From Xylophilus sp. GW821-FHT01B05 (GTDB taxonomy: Bacteria; Pseudomonadota; Gammaproteobacteria; Burkholderiales; Burkholderiaceae_C): 64,000 bases of DNA. This document shows positions 208 to 52,266 of the stretch, piece after piece. The DNA is taken from contig CP152408.1 in assembly GCA_038961845.1 (NCBI GenBank), positions 2,108,001 to 2,172,000 of the forward strand, read 5' to 3'. The notes beneath the pieces are model-generated. The model was not told where the DNA came from. It saw nothing but the letters and a program-made list of their open reading frames with translations, and ran no database searches. How positions within the stretch are numbered: the stretch's first letter is position 1; each line of letters starts with the position of its first letter. Position numbers and translations under genes: made by a program.

Positions 208-252
208 TGCCGCTATTGTCTATTAGCGAATCCGGGGACCTGAGTAGTTACA

Positions 253-316
253 AAATATTGATGAAATATGCCTCTAGCCCAGGTGCGGACTGGGCTTATA
301 GCTATCTATTTCATAG
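253..316 (+). repeat. Dispersed palindromic repeat, copy A
   Basis: A 64 bp element whose core hairpin has arms AGCCCAG (276-282) and CTGGGCT (290-296) around a 7-base loop, followed by TTATAGCTATC. It matches six other copies in the window and lies between the IS66-like gene and the thioesterase gene. It carries no coding frame of its own. Confidence 0.8.
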
Positions 317-388
317 TTTTGCTGCGCGGGCGCCGCTGTCCCGCGTGCGCGGCCCTGCCTGCTGCGCCGGCTGGCAGAATCCGGCGCG

Positions 389-11446: not shown

Positions 11447-12727
11447 ATGTTGCAGAACTTTACCGAACGCTTACTCGCCCGGGCCTTGGCGCCGCTGGTC
11501 CGGCGCGGTTCTTTGACCATTGCCTTGCCCTCGGGCCGGCGCTTGGAGCTGGGCGATGGCGGCACGCCGCAGGTGGCGATCCGCTTCACCGATGCCGCCG
11601 CCGTGCGTGCGCTGCTGCGCGACCCGGATCTGCAACTGGGCGAGCTGTTCATGGACCAGCGCCTGTGCGTGGAGCAGGGCAGCGTCTACGACCTGCTCGA
11701 GCTGCTGCTGCGCGATTCCAAGCAGGTGCGGCCCGGCCTGGCGGTGCGCGTGCTGGACCGGGTGCGCATGGGCCTGCGCGGCTTTCTGCAGCGCAACCTG
11801 CCGGCCAAGGCACGTGCCAATGTGGCCCACCACTACGACCTGGACGACCGGCTCTACCGCCTGTTCCTGGATGAGGATCGGCAGTATTCCTGCGCTTACT
11901 TTGAGTCGCCCGAGCAGGACCTGGAGGCGGCCCAACTGGCCAAGAAGCGCCACATCGCGGCCAAATTGCTGGTGGAGCCGGGCCAGCGCGTGCTGGACAT
12001 AGGCTGCGGCTGGGGCGGGCTGTCGCGCTACCTGGCGGCGGTGGCGGGCGCGGGCCATGTCACCGGCATCACGCTGTCGACCGAGCAGATCGCCGAGGCC
12101 GAGCGCCTGCGCGCCGCCACGCCGCAGCCCGACGCGCTGGAGTACCGGCTGGAAGACTACCGCGCCACGCAAGGGCGCTTTGATCGCATCGTCTCGGTGG
12201 GCATGTTCGAGCACGTGGGCCACAAGTTCCACGACGCCTTTTTTCGCCAGTGCTACGAGCTGCTGGAAGACGATGGCGTGATGCTGTTGCACTTCATCGG
12301 CAACTCTGACGTGCCGGACTTCAACAACCCGTGGATAGAGAAGTACATCTTTCCTGGCGGCAGCCTGCCATCGCTGTCGGAGTGCACGCCGGCGATAGAA
12401 CGCTCGGGCCTGGTCGTGACCGATATCGAGATCCTGCGCCTGCACTACGCGCGCACCCTGCGCCTGTGGCGCGAGCGTTTTCTGGCGCGGCGCGAAGAGG
12501 CGCGCGAGCTTTATGACGAGCGCTTTTGCCGCATGTGGGAGTTTTATCTGTCGATGTCGGAGACGGCCTTTCGCTACCAGGACATCGCCATCTTCCAGAT
12601 CCAGCTGGCGCGCCGGCAAGAGGCCGTGCCGCTCACCCGGGGCTACGTCGCCGAGCGCGAAGCGGCGCTGCGGCAGCGCGAGGCTGAGCCTGCACCGCTA
12701 CCGAAAATATTGGTCAAAATGGCCTGA
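11447..12727 (+). CDS. cfa: Cyclopropane-fatty-acyl-phospholipid synthase
   Basis: A 426-residue enzyme that adds a methylene group from S-adenosylmethionine across the double bond of membrane phospholipid acyl chains. The SAM-binding motif VLDIGCGWGGLSRYLA begins at about residue 182. ARANVAHHYDLDDRLYRLFL, YSCAYFESP and SVGMFEHVGHK are all typical of the family. The ATG at 11447 follows GCGGGG; another in-frame start lies 6 codons upstream. The final codons (ILVKMA and the TGA) lie within repeat copy B, so this C-terminus is set by the repeat rather than by the ancestral gene. Confidence 0.92.
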   Translation: MLQNFTERLLARALAPLVRRGSLTIALPSGRRLELGDGGTPQVAIRFTDAAAVRALLRDPDLQLGELFMDQRLCVEQGSVYDLLELLLRDSKQVRPGLAVRVLDRVRMGLRGFLQRNLPAKARANVAHHYDLDDRLYRLFLDEDRQYSCAYFESPEQDLEAAQLAKKRHIAAKLLVEPGQRVLDIGCGWGGLSRYLAAVAGAGHVTGITLSTEQIAEAERLRAATPQPDALEYRLEDYRATQGRFDRIVSVGMFEHVGHKFHDAFFRQCYELLEDDGVMLLHFIGNSDVPDFNNPWIEKYIFPGGSLPSLSECTPAIERSGLVVTDIEILRLHYARTLRLWRERFLARREEARELYDERFCRMWEFYLSMSETAFRYQDIAIFQIQLARRQEAVPLTRGYVAEREAALRQREAEPAPLPKILVKMA

Positions 12728-12771
12728 AGTCCAGGTGGGTCAACGGCTTTGTGCTAGAAAAAACGTAGCAG
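12703..12771 (+). repeat. Dispersed palindromic repeat, copy B
   Basis: A 69 bp copy beginning ATATTGGTCAAAATGGCCTG and ending in AAAAAACGTAGCAG. It spans the ends of the convergent genes cfa and crcB and contains both stop codons. It is the most diverged copy: TAGCTA is replaced by GTGCTA. Confidence 0.7.
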
Positions 12772-13126
12772 TGTAGACGCCTGCCAGCGTCAGCAGCAGC
12801 GAGCCGGCCACGTGCAGCAAGGCGGTGCCAAAGGCCAGGGCCAGGCGTTGCTGCAGCAGCATGCCCACCACCTCGGCCGAGAAGCTGGAGAAGGTCGTGA
12901 GGCCGCCCAGGAAGCCGGTCACCAGTGCCAGGCGCCACACCGGGTCGAGCTGCGGCAGGCTCTGGAACACCGCCACGCAGATGCCGATCAGGTAGCCGCC
13001 GATGAGGTTGGCGGCCAGCGTGCCCCAGGGCACGGTGGTCGCATGGGTGTTCAGCCAGAGGCCCAGGCCCCAGCGGGAGAGGGCGCCAATGCTGGCGCCG
13101 ATGCAGATGGCGATGACGGGAAGCAT
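12740..13126 (-). CDS. crcB: Fluoride channel CrcB/Fluc
   Basis: A 128-residue four-helix membrane protein that dimerises into a fluoride-export channel. GASIGALSRW near the start, NLIGGYLIG in helix 2, and GFLGGLTTFSSFS with the phenylalanine track and Na+ site region are all present. Its last dozen codons (about VYTATFFLAQSR) are encoded by repeat copy B, and the TGA stop lies inside the repeat. No crcB-type fluoride riboswitch is recognisable in the 150 bases upstream. Confidence 0.93.
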   Translation of the reverse strand: MLPVIAICIGASIGALSRWGLGLWLNTHATTVPWGTLAANLIGGYLIGICVAVFQSLPQLDPVWRLALVTGFLGGLTTFSSFSAEVVGMLLQQRLALAFGTALLHVAGSLLLTLAGVYTATFFLAQSR

Positions 13127-13214
13127 GGCGGCGGGGCGGGACGAATACGGCGGAGCGCGCAGTATCGCCGCAAGCCGAGAGGCCCTATCCGCACGCGGCA
13201 GCGCGGGCAGCTGA

Positions 13215-13280
13215 ATTTATGAAGAAAAGTGCCTGAAACCCAGGACTGGCGCCGGCTATTAGCTATATATTTTGTAGCTA
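13215..13280 (+). repeat. Dispersed palindromic repeat, copy C
   Basis: A 66 bp copy containing AAAAGTGCCTGAAACCCAGG and GGCTATTAGCTATATATTTT. It fills most of the gap between crcB and mrpG. Its right edge supplies the TAG stop of mrpG (minus strand, 13278-13280). Confidence 0.78.
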
Positions 13281-13646
13281 CTGAGCGTCGCCTGCCGGGC
13301 CATCGCCCAGGCCTTGCGGCACATCGGTGCGCCCGGCCCGGCGCGCCCGGAACAGCGCCGCGCGCATCAGGAAGATGGTGGTCACCGGCACCGTCAGCGC
13401 GACAAAGATGGCAATCAGCAGCGCGTGCACTGACAGCGTGCCCTCGCGGGCCGAGAAGTAGATGATGGTCGCGGCCACCAGCGACCAGCAGCCCATGGTG
13501 GCGCCCAGCGTGGTGGCGTGAATGCGCTGGAAGAAGCTCGTCAGCCGCAGCACGCCGACCGAGCCCAGCAGCGCCAACAGGCTGCCCAGCAAGGCCAGCA
13601 GGCCCACGGCGATCTCGGCCCAGAAGGGCAGCGCTGCCGGGATCAT
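13278..13646 (-). CDS. mrpG: Cation/proton antiporter subunit G (MrpG/PhaG)
   Basis: A 122-residue membrane protein, last gene of the Mrp/Pha operon. It has three hydrophobic helices and the family motifs LLGSVGVLRLTSFFQRIHA and GATMGCWSLVAA. Mrp complexes exchange cytoplasmic Na+ or K+ for protons; MrpG is a small subunit needed for complex assembly. The ATG lies within the end of mrpF, so translation is coupled. The TAG stop comes from repeat copy C. Confidence 0.88.
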   Translation of the reverse strand: MIPAALPFWAEIAVGLLALLGSLLALLGSVGVLRLTSFFQRIHATTLGATMGCWSLVAATIIYFSAREGTLSVHALLIAIFVALTVPVTTIFLMRAALFRARRAGRTDVPQGLGDGPAGDAQ

Positions 13647-23784: not shown

Positions 23785-25797
23785 TCAGCCAGCCGACAAG
23801 GCGTCGAAAGGCTGTTTGCCCTGCCACCAGGCAAGTACCTGCTCGACCGATTGCTCGATGGTCAAGCCGGAGTTGTCCAGTGACAGGGCGTCTTGTGCCG
23901 GCTTGAGTGGTGCAACGCTGCGAGAGGCATCCCGCAGGTCGCGCGCTTCCAAGTCGGCACGAAGCTCGCTGATATTAGCCGAAATTCCCTTAGAAATCAA
24001 CTGCTTATGGCGCCGCTCGGCGCGCTCGGCGGCGCTGGCGGTCAGGTAGACCTTGAGCCTGGCGCCGGGGAAGATCACGGTGCCCATGTCGCGGCCGTCG
24101 GCGACCAGGCCGGGCAGTTGGCGAAAACCGTGCTGCAGCGCGACCAGCGCTTCGCGCACGGCGGGCAGGGCCGAGACGCGCGAAGCATTCATGCCGGCTT
24201 CCTCGGTGCGGATTTCTTCGGTCACGTCGTCCGTGCCCAGCCAGACGCGGCCGGCGGCAAAGCGCACGGGCAGGCTGCGCGCCAGCAGGGCGATGGCGGC
24301 CTCGTGCGCCGGGTCTATGGCCAGGCCCGCGCGCAGTGCCGCCAGCGCGGTGATGCGGTACATGGCGCCGGAGTCAAGGAAGTGGTAGCCCAGTTGCTCT
24401 GCCACGGCGGCGGCCACCGTGCCCTTGCCAGAGGCCGTCGGGCCGTCGATGCAGAGCACGGGAATGCGCTCGACCGGCGTCTGGGTGACGCTGAACAGCG
24501 CCTCAAAGTAGTCCGGGAAGGTCTTGGCCACGCATTTCGGGTCGAGGATGCGCACCGGCACGCCGTCCGGGTTGAAGGCGGCCAGCGAGAAGCACATTGC
24601 CACTCGGTGGTCGTCATAGGTGTGGATGCTGGCCGGCCGCCATTGGCCGGCGGGCAGGGGGTGGATGCGCAGCCAGTCCGGGCCTTCTTCCACCGTGGCG
24701 CCGAGCTTGCGCGCCTCAGTGGCCATGGCGGCGATGCGGTCGGTTTCCTTGACGCGCCAGCTGGCGATGTTGCGCAGTGTGCTGGGGCCGTCGGCGTACA
24801 GCGCCATCACCGCCAGCGTCATGGCCGCGTCGGGGATGTGGTTGCAATCGAGGTCGATCGCCTTCAGTGGCCAGGCGCCGCGTGTGATCTCCAGGTGGTT
24901 GGGGCCGCTGGCTATCTGTGCGCCCATCAGGCGGGCGGCTTCTACAAAGCGGATGTCGCCCTGGATCGAGTCCTCGCCCAGGCCCTGGATTTTTATGCTT
25001 TTTTGGCCTGTAGCCGGCGTGGATATTGCGCCTAAAGCTATGAAATAGCTAGCAGAGGAGGCGTCGGCCTCGACATGGATGCTGCCTGGTGAGCGGTAGC
25101 GGCTGCCGGCGGGGATGGTGAAGCGCTGCCAGCCGTCGCGCTGCACGGCAATGCCAAAGCGCGCCAGCAGGTTGAGCGTGATCTCGATATAGGGTTTGGA
25201 GATCAGCTCGCCTTGGACTTCGATCACGATGTCCTGCCGGGCGACTAGTGGCAGCGCCAGCAGCAGCGCCGTCAGGAACTGGCTGGAGACATCGCCGCGC
25301 ACCGGAATGGGCGCATCCAGCTTCAGTGCGGGTTGACCAATCGCCAAGGGCGGAAAGCCCGGGTTGCCGAGGTAGTCGATCTTGCAGCCGAGCGCGCGCA
25401 GTGCATCGACCAGATCGCCAATTGGCCGCTCGTGCATGCGGGCCACGCCTTCCAGCGTGAAATCGCCGCCCAGGATGGCCAGCGCCGCTGCCAGCGGGCG
25501 CATGGCCGTGCCCGCGTTGCCCAGGAACAGTTTGGCCGGCGCCGTCGGCGCTCGTCCGCCCAGGCCGGTGATGGCTACGCTGCTACCGGTGCGATCCACG
25601 CCGCAGCCGAGCTGGGCCAGCGCAGCCAGCATGACGCGGGTGTCGTCGGAGTCGAGCAGGTCGTGGACCTCGGTCGTGCCCTCGCTCAGGGCCGCCAGCA
25701 GCAGCACCCGGTTGGAGATGCTCTTGGAGCCGGGCAGCTCAATGCTGCCGCCGGCCGTGGCCAGCGCGGGGAGGTCGAGGAATTCGGTGGCGTACAT
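23785..25797 (-). CDS. aroA: Fused EPSP synthase / cytidylate kinase (AroA-Cmk)
   Basis: A 670-residue bifunctional protein. Residues 1 to about 438 are 3-phosphoshikimate 1-carboxyvinyltransferase ([17 protein letters not shown] near residue 21, [17 protein letters not shown] near 91, the [13 protein letters not shown] and [13 protein letters not shown] segments). From about 445 the chain is cytidylate kinase: [20 protein letters not shown] with the P-loop near residues 450-458, then [16 protein letters not shown]. One step makes aromatic amino acids and the other CDP. The fusion is known in Comamonadaceae. Inside the AroA part, repeat copy D encodes about 23 residues after the conserved SASYF. 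The gene starts 3 bases after tyrA. Confidence 0.93.
24985..25055 (+). repeat. Dispersed palindromic repeat, copy D, inside aroA
   Basis: A 71 bp copy lying wholly inside the aroA coding sequence. It contains TTTTTTGGCCTGTAGCCGG and CCTAAAGCTATGAAATAGCT. On the minus strand it is read in frame without a stop and encodes the stretch from about YFIALGAI to ATGQKSIKI. This is an in-frame insertion or conversion of a repeat into an essential-type enzyme gene. Confidence 0.75.
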
Positions 25798-28881: not shown

Positions 28882-28892
28882 CGGGCTCGCAA

Positions 28893-28960
28893 CCAATTTC
28901 TAATGAAATATGCCTTAAGCCGTTGACTGGCGCCGGCTTATAGCTATAAAAAATGTAGTG
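28893..28960 (+). repeat. Dispersed palindromic repeat, copy E
   Basis: A 68 bp copy between serC and gyrA, containing GAAATATGCCTTAAGCCG and GGCTTATAGCTATAAAAAA. Its hairpin arms are AAGCCG (28917-28922) and CGGCTT (28934-28939). Confidence 0.8.
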
Positions 28961-28997
28961 TCGCGCGGCATGGTTGCCGCGCGACAGGGGCGGGTAA

Positions 28998-34037: not shown

Positions 34038-34424
34038 GGGGCTGCATTGGTTTCGACGTGGGTTCGGAATCGCAGCGGTGCATGTCGAGCTCAGTGCGCT
34101 CGTAAATCAGACTGAAACAAACTAACTGCAAACGACGAACGTTTCGCACTCGCCGCTTAATTGCCGGTGAGCTTTGCAACAGCAGGCCGATGGGCTGGGC
34201 AAGGGGGTTCTAGAGCAATCTAGCGCCTCCCGGCTGCAAAGATAATTACATGGGCTGGCTCCGATCCGGGTACCTTGGGTCGGGGCAAGAAAATAGGGTA
34301 CTGGCGGCCGGTGTAGCGTGCGACTGCGCGACACCGGTGGCGAGACTTAAATCAGACCGCTAAACATGTAGATCTGTGCGAAGAAGGCTTGCGGACGGGG
34401 GTTCGAATCCCCCCAGCTCCACCA
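34038..34424 (+). ncRNA. ssrA: Transfer-messenger RNA (tmRNA)
   Basis: A one-piece tmRNA of 387 bases. The 5' end GGGGCTGCATTGGTTTCGAC pairs with the 3' end to form the tRNA-like domain. The 3' end has the T-arm sequence GGTTCGAATCC and finishes in CCACCA, with CCA encoded. The reading frame resumes at GCA (34128) and encodes ANDERFALAA before TAA at 34158-34160; this is the betaproteobacterial degradation tag. tmRNA with SmpB rescues stalled ribosomes and marks the nascent protein for ClpXP. No insertion element is seen at its 3' end, a frequent integration site. Confidence 0.97.
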
Positions 34425-36487: not shown

Positions 36488-37513
36488 ATGTTTCTCGTTC
36501 GTTTTTCAGCGCCTGCTGCGTTGGCCGTCGCGTTCCTGGCGGGGCTGCTGGCCATGCCGCTGCAAGCGCAAGTGGCCTCCGCGCCGGCTGCGGCGGTACC
36601 GTCGTTACGGCATCCGATCTTCGTGCTGAATTCGCTGGATGCGGATGTCAGCGTCATCGATCCCGTCAGTTGGACCGAGGTGCGTCGCATTGCCACGGGC
36701 AAGGAGCCGCACCACCTCTACCTGACGCCCGACGAGCGCTCGCTGATCGTGGCCAACGCGCTCAGTGATTCGCTGACCTTTCTAGACCCAAAGACCGCCG
36801 AGGTGCAGCGCACGGTGCGCGGCATCGTTGACCCGTACCAGCTGCAGTTCTCGCCGGACATGAAGTGGTTCGTGACGGCGGCCAACCGGCTCAACCACAT
36901 CGATATCTACCGCTGGGACGGGCGTGACTTGGTGCTGGCCAAGCGTGTGGCCACGGCGCGCACGCCAAGCCATCTGTGGATCGACAGCAAGAGCCGCACG
37001 CTCTACTCGACGATGCAAGACAGCGACGAGCTGGTGGCCATCGACATGCAGACCCAGACCATCAAGTGGCGCACCGGCACCGGCCCCATGCCGGCCGACG
37101 TGTTCCTGACGCCGGATGACCGCACGCTGTTCATTGGCCTGACCGGCGGCAGCGGGGTGGAGGTGTATGACGTCTCTGGCGCTGCGCCGCGCCTGCTGAA
37201 GACGATCCCCACCGGCAAGGGCGCGCACGCCTTCCGCAGCGCGGGCGATGGGCGCCACGTTTATGTGAGCAATCGCGTGGCCAACACCATCAGCAAGCTC
37301 GACTGGCAGGAGCAAAAGGTGGTGGCCAGCTATCCCGCGCCGGGCGGGCCGGACTGCATGGATATCTCGGCTGATGGCCGCTTCATCCTGGTTACCTCGC
37401 GCTGGGCCAAGAAGCTCACCGTGATCGACACCCAGACGCGCCAGGTGGTGCGGCAGGTCAAGGTCGGAAAGTCGCCCCATGGTGTCTGGACGCTGGACCA
37501 CGCGCCGCGCTGA
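36488..37513 (+). CDS. YVTN-type beta-propeller protein, exported
   Basis: A 341-residue periplasmic or surface protein. The signal peptide ends around LAMPLQAQ. The mature protein is a seven-bladed propeller of the YVTN/PQQ-like class. Repeats of the form D-x-x-x-V-x-x-I-G-x-x-P-H are visible (IFVLNSLDADVSVID, RIATGKEPHHLYLTPDERSL, VYVSNRVANTISKLD, ILVTSRWAKKLTVIDTQ, VGKSPHGVWTL). A start 5 codons upstream (36473) is also possible. The next gene begins inside its end (35-base overlap), so the two are likely co-translated. Such propellers usually bind partners; no catalytic residues are seen. Confidence 0.85.
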   Translation: MFLVRFSAPAALAVAFLAGLLAMPLQAQVASAPAAAVPSLRHPIFVLNSLDADVSVIDPVSWTEVRRIATGKEPHHLYLTPDERSLIVANALSDSLTFLDPKTAEVQRTVRGIVDPYQLQFSPDMKWFVTAANRLNHIDIYRWDGRDLVLAKRVATARTPSHLWIDSKSRTLYSTMQDSDELVAIDMQTQTIKWRTGTGPMPADVFLTPDDRTLFIGLTGGSGVEVYDVSGAAPRLLKTIPTGKGAHAFRSAGDGRHVYVSNRVANTISKLDWQEQKVVASYPAPGGPDCMDISADGRFILVTSRWAKKLTVIDTQTRQVVRQVKVGKSPHGVWTLDHAPR

Positions 37514-38354
37514 GCGCCCGCGGCGGTTGCCGCGCCAGGCCTCCATTCTTGCAGTTGCTATTGTATTGATAGCTATATGCCGGCCTGCAGCCTGGGCTAC
37601 AGGCCAAAATGGCTCTGAAAGCTGCGGCAAGCCCGTATACCTGACCTTTGACACCGGCCACATGGCCATTGCGCCGCTCGTGGCCGACGTGCTGCGCCGG
37701 CACGACGTGAAGGTGACCTTCTTCGCGGCTGACGAGGCCACGAAGGAGGGCGATGGCAGCCTGGGCCAGCACTGGGCGCCTTGGTGGCGCGCGCGCGCCG
37801 CCGAGGGCCACGCCTTTGCCTCGCATACCTACGACCATGCCTATTGGCGCGGCGATATTCCGGCCGACGCCACGCATCCGCAGCGCTTTCGCATCCGCCC
37901 CTCCGCCGGGCCGCAGCAGGGGCGCGATCTGGTGCTGGATGCGGCGGGCTATTGCGAGGAGGTTCGCCGCTCCGAGGACCGCCTGCGCGAAGTCACGGGG
38001 CAGGCGCCCCTGCCGCTGTTCCGGGCGCCGGGCGGCAAGACGTCGCCAGCCCTGCTGGCGGCCGCGCGCAGTTGTGGCTATGCCCATGTCGGCTGGGCGC
38101 CTGCAGGCTTTCTGGGCGATGAGCTGCCGAGCGAGCGCTTCAGCAACCAGGCCCTGCTGGACAAGGCCTTGCGCGACATCCGGCCCGGCGACATCTTGCT
38201 GGCCCACCTGGGCATCTGGTCGCGCAAGGACCCCTGGGCACCGGCCGTGCTGGAGCCCCTGATCGTTGGCCTGCAGGCCAAGGGTTTTTGTTTTGCCACG
38301 CTGCGGGAGCACCCGGACTACCGCGCCTGGATCGCCCAGCATCCCCCACGCTGA
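37479..38354 (+). CDS. Polysaccharide deacetylase family protein with repeat-derived signal peptide
   Basis: A 291-residue NodB-domain protein. After about 20 basic residues comes a hydrophobic run SILAVAIVLIAIC and a cleavage-like AWA; this stretch is encoded by repeat copy F. Motif 1 is LTFDTGH, where the usual second Asp (metal ligand in TFDDG) is Thr; motif 2 HTYDH and motif 3 RAPGGK are intact. Family members remove N- or O-acetyl groups from cell-wall or capsule sugars outside the cytoplasm. The changed motif 1 leaves activity uncertain. It overlaps the propeller gene by 35 bases, and its stop overlaps the next start (TGATG). Confidence 0.82.
   Translation: MVSGRWTTRRAERPRRLPRQASILAVAIVLIAICRPAAWATGQNGSESCGKPVYLTFDTGHMAIAPLVADVLRRHDVKVTFFAADEATKEGDGSLGQHWAPWWRARAAEGHAFASHTYDHAYWRGDIPADATHPQRFRIRPSAGPQQGRDLVLDAAGYCEEVRRSEDRLREVTGQAPLPLFRAPGGKTSPALLAAARSCGYAHVGWAPAGFLGDELPSERFSNQALLDKALRDIRPGDILLAHLGIWSRKDPWAPAVLEPLIVGLQAKGFCFATLREHPDYRAWIAQHPPR
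37546..37616 (-). repeat. Dispersed palindromic repeat, copy F, inside the deacetylase signal peptide
   Basis: A 71 bp copy in the opposite orientation to the others. On the minus strand it contains CATTTTGGCCTGTAGCCCAG and ATATAGCTATCAATACAAT. It is read in frame on the plus strand as the hydrophobic signal segment of the gene at 37479. Confidence 0.78.
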
Positions 38355-49177: not shown

Positions 49178-51319
49178 ATGCCTGCCAGCCACGCCCTCAG
49201 CCGCCTCCTGAACCCCCGCTCCGTCGCCGTGATTGGCGCGTCTGACGACGCGCTGCGCATCGGTGGCCGCCCGCTCAGCTACATGCTCAGCCAGGGCTAC
49301 CAGGGGCGGCTGATGCCGGTCAACCCGAACCGGCCCAGCATCCAGGGCCTGCCGGCCTTTGCCAGCGTGGCTGCGTTGCCTGAGACGCCGGACGTGGCCA
49401 TCGTCGCCGTCGCGGCCAGGCTGGCGCCGCAGGTGGTGGCGGACCTGGGCGCACGCGGCACGCCGGCGGCCATCGTGTTCTCTGCCGGCTTTGCCGAGAT
49501 GGGCGAAGAGGGCGCGCTGCTGGAGCAGCAGATGGTGGCCGCGGCGCGCGCCAGTGGCATACGCCTGCTGGGGCCCAACTCGCTGGGCGTGCTCAACCCG
49601 CGCATCGGCTTCTATGGCAGCTTCACCTCGGTGGTGGAGATGGGCTTTCCGCAGCCGGGCCGCGTGGGCATAGCGAGCCAGTCGGGCGCCTATGGCAGCC
49701 ACATCCTGGGGCTGGCGCGCGAATTTGGCATTGGCGTCTCGTCCTGCGTGATGAGCGGCAACGAATGCGACATCACCCTGGGTGATTTGGTTCAGGCCTT
49801 TGTCGAGGACGGTGATACCGATGTGATCACCGTCTACTCAGAAGGCATCCGCGACGGCCAGCGCCTGCTGGCGGCGCTGGAGGCCGCGCGCCGCGCGCGC
49901 AAGCCGGTGGTGATGATGAAGGTGGGCACCAGCGCGGTCGGCAGCGCCGCGGCGCAGTCGCATACCGCCTCCATCGCCGGCAACGACGCGGTGACTGATG
50001 CCGTATTGGCCGACTATGGCGTGGTACGCGCCCGCTCCACCGAGCACATGCTGGACGTGGCGCGGCTGGCCACGCGGCGCATTTATCCGGTCAACAACTC
50101 GCTAGGCGTGATCACGGTGAGCGGCGGCGCTGGCGTGATCGTGTCCGACGCGGCCGAGGTGGTGGGCCTGCCCATGCCCGAGATGCCGGCCGCCGCACAA
50201 AAGCACTTGAAGGCGCTGATCCCCTTCGCCGCGCCGCGCAACCCGGTGGACTGCACGGCGCAGTTCATGAACGACCTGAGCATTGCCGGCCGCTTTGCCG
50301 AGGCCGTGGTGCAAGAGGGCGGCTACCAGTCCATCCTGGGTTTTTTCACTTACACCGTGGGCGCGGCCTCTATCGCGGATGGCTTGCGCGCGCAGCTCAA
50401 GGCCGTGCGCGACAAGCACCCGGACCGACTGTTTGTGCTGTCCATCCTGGCCTCGAAAGAGCGCGTGCGCCAGTACGAGGAAGACGGCTTCACGGTGTTC
50501 GAAGACCCGGCGCGCGCGGTGATTGCGATCGAGGCCATGGGCCGCTTTGGCGATGCCTTTGCACGCCAGCCGGGCCTGCCCGCGCCAGTGGTGCCACAGA
50601 TGGCGCTGCCAGCGGATACGCCGAGCGAGGCCGAGGCCAAGCGCGTACTGGCCGCAGCCGGCATTGCGGTGGCGCCCGAGCGCTCTTGTGCCACGGCCGA
50701 GGTGGCAGTGGCTGCGGCCGAGGCGCTGGGCTGGCCCGTAGTGATGAAGATCCTGTCGCCCGACATCCTGCACAAATCCGAGATTGGTGGCGTGCTGCTG
50801 AACGTAGCTGACGTAGACGCGGTGCGCGCCGGCTTTGCCACCTTGATAGCGCGCGGCAAGAGGGCGGCACCCGCTGCCCGCATCGAAGGCGTGCTGGTCG
50901 CCAAGCAACTGAGCGGTGGCGTCGAATGCATCTTGGGCATCCAGCGCGACCCGGTGTTTGGCCCGGTGGCCATGTTTGGCCTGGGCGGTATTTTTGTCGA
51001 GGTGATGAAGGACGTGGTGCTGCAGCAGTGCCCGTTTGGCGAAGACGTGGCCGAGAAGATGATCCGCTCCATCAAGGGCGCGCCACTGCTGCTGGGCGCG
51101 CGCGGCAAGCCGCCGGTGGATGTGAAGGCATTGGCCGCGATGCTGGCGCGCCTGTCGGTGTTTGCGCACCAGGCTGGGCCACGCTTGCAGTCCATCGACC
51201 TGAACCCGGTGTTTGCCTTGCCAGCAGGGCAGGGCGCTTACGCGGCTGATGCGGTGATCGAGTTGCTGCTCGCCACGCCAGCGGCCGAGTCGCCAGTTGT
51301 GGCAGAGGCTTTGGCGTAA
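49178..51319 (+). CDS. NDP-forming acyl-CoA synthetase (acetate-CoA ligase family)
   Basis: A 713-residue enzyme that joins a carboxylic acid to CoA with ATP giving ADP and phosphate. Domain order: CoA-binding Rossmann domain (SVAVIGASDDALRIGGRPL), succinyl-CoA ligase-like domains with the phosphorylated His262 in QSHTASIAGND, and a C-terminal ATP-grasp domain (from about residue 480; VVMKILSPDILHKSEIGGVL). Related enzymes are used for feruloyl-CoA (Fcs-like) and pimeloyl-CoA, so the acid here is not fixed. It is the likely entry step of the pathway. Repeat copy G follows its stop. Confidence 0.9.
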   Translation: MPASHALSRLLNPRSVAVIGASDDALRIGGRPLSYMLSQGYQGRLMPVNPNRPSIQGLPAFASVAALPETPDVAIVAVAARLAPQVVADLGARGTPAAIVFSAGFAEMGEEGALLEQQMVAAARASGIRLLGPNSLGVLNPRIGFYGSFTSVVEMGFPQPGRVGIASQSGAYGSHILGLAREFGIGVSSCVMSGNECDITLGDLVQAFVEDGDTDVITVYSEGIRDGQRLLAALEAARRARKPVVMMKVGTSAVGSAAAQSHTASIAGNDAVTDAVLADYGVVRARSTEHMLDVARLATRRIYPVNNSLGVITVSGGAGVIVSDAAEVVGLPMPEMPAAAQKHLKALIPFAAPRNPVDCTAQFMNDLSIAGRFAEAVVQEGGYQSILGFFTYTVGAASIADGLRAQLKAVRDKHPDRLFVLSILASKERVRQYEEDGFTVFEDPARAVIAIEAMGRFGDAFARQPGLPAPVVPQMALPADTPSEAEAKRVLAAAGIAVAPERSCATAEVAVAAAEALGWPVVMKILSPDILHKSEIGGVLLNVADVDAVRAGFATLIARGKRAAPAARIEGVLVAKQLSGGVECILGIQRDPVFGPVAMFGLGGIFVEVMKDVVLQQCPFGEDVAEKMIRSIKGAPLLLGARGKPPVDVKALAAMLARLSVFAHQAGPRLQSIDLNPVFALPAGQGAYAADAVIELLLATPAAESPVVAEALA

Positions 51320-51321
51320 TT

Positions 51322-51383
51322 CCAATTTTTAGAAGAAAAGTGGCCAAAGCCCAGGTGCTGACTGGGCTTGTAGCTACAAAAAG
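51322..51383 (+). repeat. Dispersed palindromic repeat, copy G
   Basis: A 62 bp copy between the acyl-CoA synthetase and MaoC genes. Arms AGCCCAG (51348-51354) and CTGGGCT (51362-51368) enclose GTGCTGA; TTGTAGCTAC follows. It closely matches copy A in the core. Confidence 0.8.
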
Positions 51384-51396
51384 CGGAGCAATCGCC

Positions 51397-52266
51397 ATGC
51401 CTCTCGATCCCCAGAACCTGCTGTCTCGCCCATTCGCCCCGGTAGAGCAGGCCTACAGCGCGCACGACAGCATGCTCTATGCCCTGGGCTGCGGCCTGGG
51501 CGCCGACCCGCTTGATGCGGGGCAGCTGCGCTACGTCTACGAGCGCGCCGCAGGCGGCCTGCAGGCGCTGCCCACGCTGGCCAACGTGCTGGGCTACAGC
51601 GGCTTCTGGGCCGACCAGCCTGATACCGGCATCACCTGGCAAAAGCTGGTGCATGCCGAGCAGGCCATTGAACTGCACCAGCCGCTGCCCGCAGCAGGCC
51701 GCGTGATCGGCCATACCCGCGTGGTCGGGCTGCACGACAAGGGCGCAGACAAAGGCGCGCTGATGCTGCTGCAGCGGCGCGTGACCGATGCCGCCACCGG
51801 CACGCTGCTGGCCACCGTCACGCAGACCACCATGCTGCGCGCCGATGGCGGTTTTGGCGGATCGCATGGCCTGCCGCTGGCTGCGCCGCACGTCATCCCT
51901 GAGCGTGCGCCCGACCATGTCTGCGACTTGCCCACGCTGGCGCAGGCCGCGCTGCTGTACCGCCTGAATGGCGACTTCAATCCGCTGCATGCAGACCCGG
52001 CCGTGGCGCAGGCTGCAGGCTTCTCGCGGCCCATCCTGCATGGGCTGGCGACCATGGGCGTGGCGCTGCATGCGGTGCTCAAGACCGTGCTGGGCTACGA
52101 CGCCGTGGCCGTGCGCGGCATGCGCGTGCGCTTTACCGCGCCGGTGCTGCCGGGCGAGATATTGCGCACCGAGCTGTGGCGCGACGGCAGCGTGGTGTCG
52201 CTGCGCACCACCGCGCTGGAGCGCGGCGTGCTCGTGCTCAACGCAGGCCGCATCGAGCTCGCCTGA
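51397..52266 (+). CDS. MaoC-family (R)-specific enoyl-CoA hydratase, two-hotdog type
   Basis: A 289-residue hydratase-2-like protein made of two hotdog halves. The C-terminal half has the hydratase-2 motif NGDFNPLHADPAVAQAAGFS with the catalytic Asp and His, followed by RPILHGLATMG. The N-terminal half has LPTLANVLGYSGFW. It would add water to a trans-enoyl-CoA to give the (R)-3-hydroxyacyl-CoA. The ATG at 51397 follows GCGGAG; the open frame reaches 51340, but that start would lie within repeat copy G. Confidence 0.88.
   Translation: MPLDPQNLLSRPFAPVEQAYSAHDSMLYALGCGLGADPLDAGQLRYVYERAAGGLQALPTLANVLGYSGFWADQPDTGITWQKLVHAEQAIELHQPLPAAGRVIGHTRVVGLHDKGADKGALMLLQRRVTDAATGTLLATVTQTTMLRADGGFGGSHGLPLAAPHVIPERAPDHVCDLPTLAQAALLYRLNGDFNPLHADPAVAQAAGFSRPILHGLATMGVALHAVLKTVLGYDAVAVRGMRVRFTAPVLPGEILRTELWRDGSVVSLRTTALERGVLVLNAGRIELA

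Follow-up and report, generated by a model that had tools for sequence, protein, structure and literature searches.

Signal peptides built from genomic repeats have a described precedent in Yersinia, where the repeat RU-2/YPAL forms part of the predicted signal peptide of YPO1552 (Delihas 2007, PMC2759123) and the homologues in other genera are reported to have unrelated signal peptides (PMC2759123, reviewed in PMC2229807). Rickettsia palindromic elements (RPEs), of 105-146 bp, are described as intergenic copies and as in-frame copies within conserved protein genes (PMC2229807). The GTAG/CGTC repetitive extragenic palindromic (REP) elements, of 20-40 bp, are mostly intergenic, with some copies at gene starts and others within genes for replication and repair, and for most of the N-terminal cases their authors suspected mis-annotated starts (PMC3733652). 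Additionally, the beta-proteobacterial repeat element (BRE), of about 90 bp, is described in Bordetella and several Comamonadaceae with some copies within coding sequences; its Bordetella copies average 69% GC, form tandem arrays and are not oriented with replication (PMC3110155). Here, we analyzed a stretch of 64,000 nucleotides (nt) of Xylophilus sp. GW821-FHT01B05 (contig CP152408.1, positions 2,108,001 to 2,172,000; hereafter the window, with its source genome as G000, relatives as other G numbers and loci or stretches as L numbers), in which a decayed copy of a dispersed hairpin repeat, copy F, is translated as the predicted signal peptide of a polysaccharide deacetylase.

The deacetylase gene (37479..38354, plus strand, stop codon included; 291 amino acids) comes from the open reading frame (ORF) list, and its product belongs to the polysaccharide deacetylase family by its Pfam domain PF01522 (Polysacc_deac_1; residues 49-202, E 3.7e-20, 72.6 bits against a cut-off of 23.1). 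Read from the ATG at 37479, the N-terminus is MVSGRWTTRRAERPRRLPRQASILAVAIVLIAICRPAAWATG. According to our own hydropathy and charge measures, it has a net charge of +6 ahead of a 12-residue hydrophobic core (residues 23-34; 37545..37580, plus strand; mean Kyte-Doolittle hydropathy 3.49), followed by the cleavage-like motif AWA (residues 38-40; 37590..37598, plus strand). An equally or more hydrophobic stretch occurs in the first 50 residues of only 0.3% of 1345 called genes of the sampled genome. The basic n-region, the hydrophobic core and the small residues at -3 and -1 are those of a type I Sec signal, so that the Sec-like N-terminus with its basic upstream residues is predicted here as it was originally, and the coordinates, frame and peptide given for it were correct. 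Copy F encodes most of the predicted core and the AWA motif. The conserved repeat core begins near 37557 (residue A27), the hydrophobic core lies inside it from residue 27 on, and AWA falls in the right stem arm (CCTGGGCT), as seen in the sequence and in its alignment with other copies. The original prediction had the hydrophobic run and AWA almost entirely repeat-coded, which holds for most of the core and for the motif; SILAV, the left end of the run, is located in the poorly conserved repeat flank.

Translation of the repeat is imposed by the position of the start codons. The only in-frame starts ahead of the deacetylase domain are 37479, 37482, 37527 and 37566, and because of this the repeat stem and right arm are translated whichever of them is used. 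A later start that leaves the repeat untranslated, considered in the original prediction, is ruled out, as the in-frame listing contains none between copy F and the catalytic TFDTG motif, and skipping the repeat would lose that motif. The likely start in G000 is the ATG at 37479..37481 (plus strand), which, as had been noted, lies inside the preceding gene. This gene, encoding a YncE-like beta-propeller protein (36488..37513, plus strand, with the end from the ORF and a provisional start; PF21783, E 8.5e-166), overlaps the start of the deacetylase by 35 nt at its 3' end. Several orthologues have an in-frame ATG in the context GACC ATG CGC within the final codons of the upstream gene, a position that reads ACG in G000 and in its closest relative, G005. 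The ATG at 37479 in G000 arises from CAT, the codon for His in the PHGV motif of the upstream gene. Among loci lacking a later in-frame ATG, 24 of 24 have CAT at this codon, versus 43 of 92 among those that have one (Fisher test, 2.5e-7), a comparison in which four loci fit neither class and related loci are not independent; G005 belongs to the later-ATG class, with an additional ATG where its hydrophobic core begins. Translation from the TTG at 37527..37529 (plus strand), taken from the same list of in-frame starts, would instead give a shorter signal peptide, MPRQASILAVAIVLIAICRPAAWA, with the repeat still translated. That peptide would have a more usual length and one net positive charge ahead of the core, and the ATG is partly imposed by the conserved PHG motif of the upstream gene; however, G005 has no start codon at the TTG position in an ungapped alignment, and the retention of CAT is complete where no later ATG exists, and we regard this start as unlikely.

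Copy F scores low, and its assignment depends on comparison. Three models were used: R1, built from six window copies without F; R2, from 30 copies; and R3, family-wide, from 28 copies in 12 genomes, all of them outside the deacetylase and not including the weak matches in L225 and L226 described below. R1 detects copy F at 37550..37626 (plus strand; 28.9 bits, E 0.006) and detects the same place in G005 (36.5 bits, E 1.6e-4), and the extents given by R2 and R3 are 37545-37621 (E 0.16 in 864 kb) and 37545-37631 (E 0.028 in 864 kb, and 0.005 for the set of orthologous loci), respectively, all E-values for copy F being rough. We assign it to the hairpin repeat family as a weak, decayed member because the G005 copy and 37 of 120 orthologous loci match at the same place. 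The stem is perfect in the G005 copy (fold z -2.9) and eroded in copy F (z -1.1), and the two genomes, which are 88-90% identical around the site, are 63% identical within the repeat at equal length. Copy F thus reads as an old copy, and a recent insertion limited to this species was dropped as a candidate once G005, and then other genera, showed the copy.

The orthologous loci comprised 30 from relatives, 30 of 226 matching genomes and the best 80 of 355 named records, giving 120 after the removal of 20 duplicates from 140; as these are best matches, the fractions are not family-wide rates. R3 matches the N-terminal coding region in the 37 loci mentioned at E <= 0.05, always in the sense orientation, and elsewhere in the same 444 kb it has 7 matches; weak N-terminal matches (E 0.06 to 3.5) occur in ten further loci. 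Carriers include Acidovorax facilis, A. radicis, Paenacidovorax caeni, Polaromonas jejuensis and other Polaromonas, as well as Rhodoferax, Hylemonella, Comamonas and Ramlibacter metagenome-assembled genomes, and no N-terminal match was found in the fetched Variovorax, Curvibacter, Pseudorhodoferax, Limnohabitans and Paracidovorax cattleyae loci. Among genomes with a fetched orthologue, the deacetylase copy is present in 10 of 16 that bear the repeat (12 including weak matches) versus 0 of 13 that are repeat-free (Fisher tests, 4e-4 and 6e-5, relatedness ignored; G030, with one repeat match, was left out). Ordinary signal peptides could resemble the repeat through their codon make-up, by chance or convergence, as might be suspected from the weakness of copy F on its own and from the signal-peptide-like reading of L225 and L226, which lie outside R3. 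Nevertheless, palindromic stems occur in the orthologues (the L002 copy folds as one, z -2.9), the N-terminal matches far outnumber those elsewhere, and R3 is silent on ordinary signal peptides: it detects the repeat in 18 of 60 relatives and gives nothing at E <= 0.01 in 42 of the 60 whole genomes (strict filters, at most 74 scored matches). We consider a chance resemblance very improbable.

The spacing of the copies points in the same direction. The spacing between the ATAGC/GTAGC anchor of the repeat and the first catalytic-domain codon was measured in 45 copies (of 47, with L147 and L166 left out). It is 57 nt in 24 of them and a multiple of three in 44, the exception, L002, being a mis-picked anchor whose true distance is 66. 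Distances between the upstream stop codon and the anchor are not limited to one frame. Spacing that is in frame downstream and free upstream fits a translated segment of shared origin, and its conservation across loci suggests an old, inherited insertion that has often been lost. Furthermore, the orthologues without the copy still have signal-peptide-like N-termini, unrelated to the repeat, and therefore the repeat appears to have taken over an existing export function rather than having created it. Relatives with the same kind of peptide also show the repeat. Consequently, the original claim that a mobile repeat supplied an export signal is partly supported: the observation is confirmed, with the repeat supplying most of the core and the motif, and the interpretation was right in kind and wrong in tempo and scope, since a recent gain of export does not agree with a copy common to G005 and other genera or with the unrelated signal peptides of orthologues that lack it.

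The deacetylase is not the only gene that uses the repeat in this way. At E <= 0.05, 136 copies were found in 1.664 Mb (evenly spaced G000 stretches plus the window; nine opposite-strand partial matches overlapping a copy are excluded from the count), and eight of them overlap gene N-termini. Three overlaps were judged real, namely those in the deacetylase, an M16 peptidase and a TonB-dependent receptor. The other five were set aside by eye: L076 7073, with its called start 111 nt downstream; L277, with its own signal sequence downstream; L268 12469, a proline-rich stretch; and L268 4897 and L278 19873, with no convincing signal. The M16 peptidase (PF00675/PF05193) begins MFTIKNIAISRLLAWALATFLAKDALA, with the repeat in the same frame as in the deacetylase; the copy is present in G000, G001, G002, G005 and G006 and absent from G003 and G004. 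In 30 fetched loci of 39 matching genomes, an N-terminal match at E <= 0.05 is found in 13 of 23 family loci versus 0 of 7 loci of other families, and of these 13 M16 copies, 12 share a single anchor distance and TAGC position, L325 being the different one. In the TonB-dependent receptor (PF00593/PF07715; start codon provisional), an antisense copy reads AFIRKVGLAQVQQGLSALVFIATGVAAQ, and the receptor probably uses the same repeat as a predicted signal peptide; G000, G005 and G006 carry this copy, and the remaining four members of the genus do not. Within this one genus, the repeat is abundant in five species (G000, G001, G002, G005 and G006) and undetected in two, G003 and G004, whose deacetylase, M16 and receptor genes are likewise without it. 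This amounts to a wholesale loss, or gain, of the family. Weak matches at L225:1501-1587 (G025) and L226:1501-1587 (G020) read by eye as signal-peptide-like, FALKFVAASALLACAAGAFAQ and RFVIATILIAAGAWLTWA, and are possibly further repeat-coded N-termini.

Taken together, we consider it probable, with good confidence, that an ancestral repeat became the deacetylase signal peptide, was inherited in frame and was often lost. In an ancestor of many present Comamonadaceae genera, a copy of the dispersed palindromic repeat would have become the coding sequence of the signal peptide and would have been passed on in frame since then, with repeated loss. The repeat can serve this role because its consensus is open in one sense frame, whereas TAG stops interrupt the other two. 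Read in that frame, the AT-rich left arm gives A-I-x-L-I-A and would supply the hydrophobic core, and the right stem arm gives x-S-A (AAGCGCT), or x-W-A in the form seen in copy F, and would supply the AxA-type cleavage motif. Translation from the ATG at 37479 in G000 would then yield an n-region rich in arginine, followed by the core ILAVAIVLIAIC; the enzyme would be exported by Sec and cut by leader peptidase after AWA.

It is important to consider the observations that weigh against this account. By itself, copy F scores weakly, with E from 0.005 to 0.16 depending on the model and search size, and since a short hydrophobic peptide constrains its DNA, weak matches may partly represent convergence. 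The repeat-bearing genomes G009, G012, G018 and G028 have no deacetylase copy, the 120 loci are best matches rather than a random sample, and an unrooted quick tree of these loci implies 17-20 changes of the trait, so that one origin needs many losses; the copy was commonly lost or overwritten, or else it was in some cases gained separately. The number of changes would also be expected under recurrent insertion, that is, separate entries at a preferred target in several lineages, of which only copies in the signal frame survived, and such insertion would agree with stem variants that track the host clade, not the orthologous copies. On the other hand, the 57-nt spacing is shared by copies of distant genera and the TAGC position by nearly all M16 copies, and base-exact target choice would be needed twice. 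We therefore judge recurrent insertion unlikely and prefer the single inherited insertion with frequent loss.

Stem variants add a further layer to the history of these inherited signal-peptide copies. The similarity of the M16 stem-loops (ten genomes) is 0.642 to repeats of their own genome, 0.432 to those of other genomes and 0.517 to orthologous copies, and for the deacetylase (nine genomes) the corresponding values are 0.562, 0.434 and 0.467; for either gene, the observed value is reached in 0 of 2000 permutations. These comparisons use 2-3 high-scoring copies per genome, are uncorrected for relatedness and keep one mis-anchored G010 deacetylase row. Against a strict concerted reading, no more than 5 of 10 M16 and 3 of 9 deacetylase copies have their own genome as the sole best match, and for the remaining copies a sister genome or another genus is equal or better. 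The pattern suggests that the signal-peptide copies follow the stem variant of the host clade, in a concerted evolution at the clade level, for which exchange among repeats would be the simplest cause, with re-insertion as an alternative cause. A broader proposal, which we consider possible without favoring it, is that the sole stop-free sense frame of this Comamonadaceae hairpin repeat constitutes a ready-made Sec signal, portable and used by several envelope proteins through much of the history of the family, which exchange among repeats rewrites to the clade variant. If this were true, unrelated exported proteins would share concertedly evolving signal peptides.

The repeat family to which copy F belongs has units of about 65-75 bp in the window. 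Apart from copy F, minus-strand copies lie at 243..329 (R3, 79.7 bits), 12695..12781 (28.3 bits), 13204..13290 (52.6 bits), 28885..28971 (61.7 bits) and 51315..51401 (57.2 bits), and a doubtful, decayed one, used in R1, lies at 24988..25065 (minus strand; 16.3 bits, E 0.62). The copy at 51315-51401 extends across the 5' end called for a gene at 51339, but a later ATG looks like the true start of this gene. A whole-genome search of G000 with R1 gave at least 150 matches, and about 475 copies per genome are estimated if the sample is fair. In the chromosome, the GC skew reverses sign at about 2.6 Mb, and 124 of the 150 best R1 matches are either minus-strand copies ahead of this point or plus-strand copies beyond it, the repeats thus being oriented with replication; in the sample, 88 of 136 copies have this orientation, and copy F opposes it. 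The stems differ between genomes with compensating changes, two-sided in 5 of 7 pairs: CCCAGG/CCTGGG in G000 and G005, CCGGC/GCCGG in G001 and G002, CGCAGG/CCTGCG or the like in G006 and CGCTT/AAGCG in G016, as judged from 2-3 high-scoring copies per genome.

Membership of a REP system with its associated tyrosine transposase (RAYT) was rejected, as a search for PF01797 found no associated Y1 transposase. There was none in G000, G001, G002 and G006 and one below the cut-off in G005, and one each was found in repeat-bearing G008, G009, G010, G012, G015 and G016 and in repeat-free G003 and G004. The repeat has no Rfam family either; at gathering thresholds, the sole Rfam match in the window is a transfer-messenger RNA gene (34038-34424, RF00023, 190.9 bits). 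A published description of this repeat was not recognized in the portions available of the open-licence PubMed Central literature, including PMC2755013, PMC12306157 and PMC3733652, which argues only weakly that none exists.

Protein-coding palindromic repeats are usually viewed as tolerated insertions, and here one forms a functional-looking part of exported proteins. These loci offer a natural series for studying the origin of signal peptides and the reasons for their rapid sequence turnover, and for asking if pieces of unrelated proteins can be homogenized by a repeat family. They also carry a warning for annotation, since starts picked to exclude such "extragenic" repeats would delete real signal peptides.

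As for the known systems, the repeat is set apart from BRE, as far as the latter is known from its description, by its GC content (37-60%), its interspersed copies and its orientation bias, and it was not assigned to that family. It shares with the GTAG/CGTC REP elements, as described in PMC3733652, a palindromic form and copies at gene starts or inside replication and repair genes; unlike them, a mis-annotated start is excluded here and the Y1 transposase is missing from the four genomes named above. The likeness to RPEs lies in palindromic copies placed in frame within conserved protein genes, 15 of the 136 copies being internal in-frame overlaps within called genes, of which six are named by Pfam (DNA polymerase III tau/gamma, DNA polymerase III alpha, a UvrD-type helicase-nuclease, IPP transferase, CobU and an outer membrane efflux protein, in G000 stretches L087, L079, L077, L088 and L099). 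By analogy, the repeat would work like RPEs without being classed as one, since those are described as insertions into proteins and not as signal peptides (PMC2229807). The closest parallel is YPO1552, with its repeat-derived predicted signal peptide and the unrelated signal peptides of its homologues, although the account in PMC2759123 concerns a 168 bp Yersinia repeat in one hypothetical exported protein, whereas the present repeat is shorter and is found in enzymes and a receptor, at the same position across genera. As a class, the mechanism is thus known; what goes further than these precedents, as they are described, is that one genomic repeat serves as a predicted signal peptide in more than one gene and does so at the same place in different genera.
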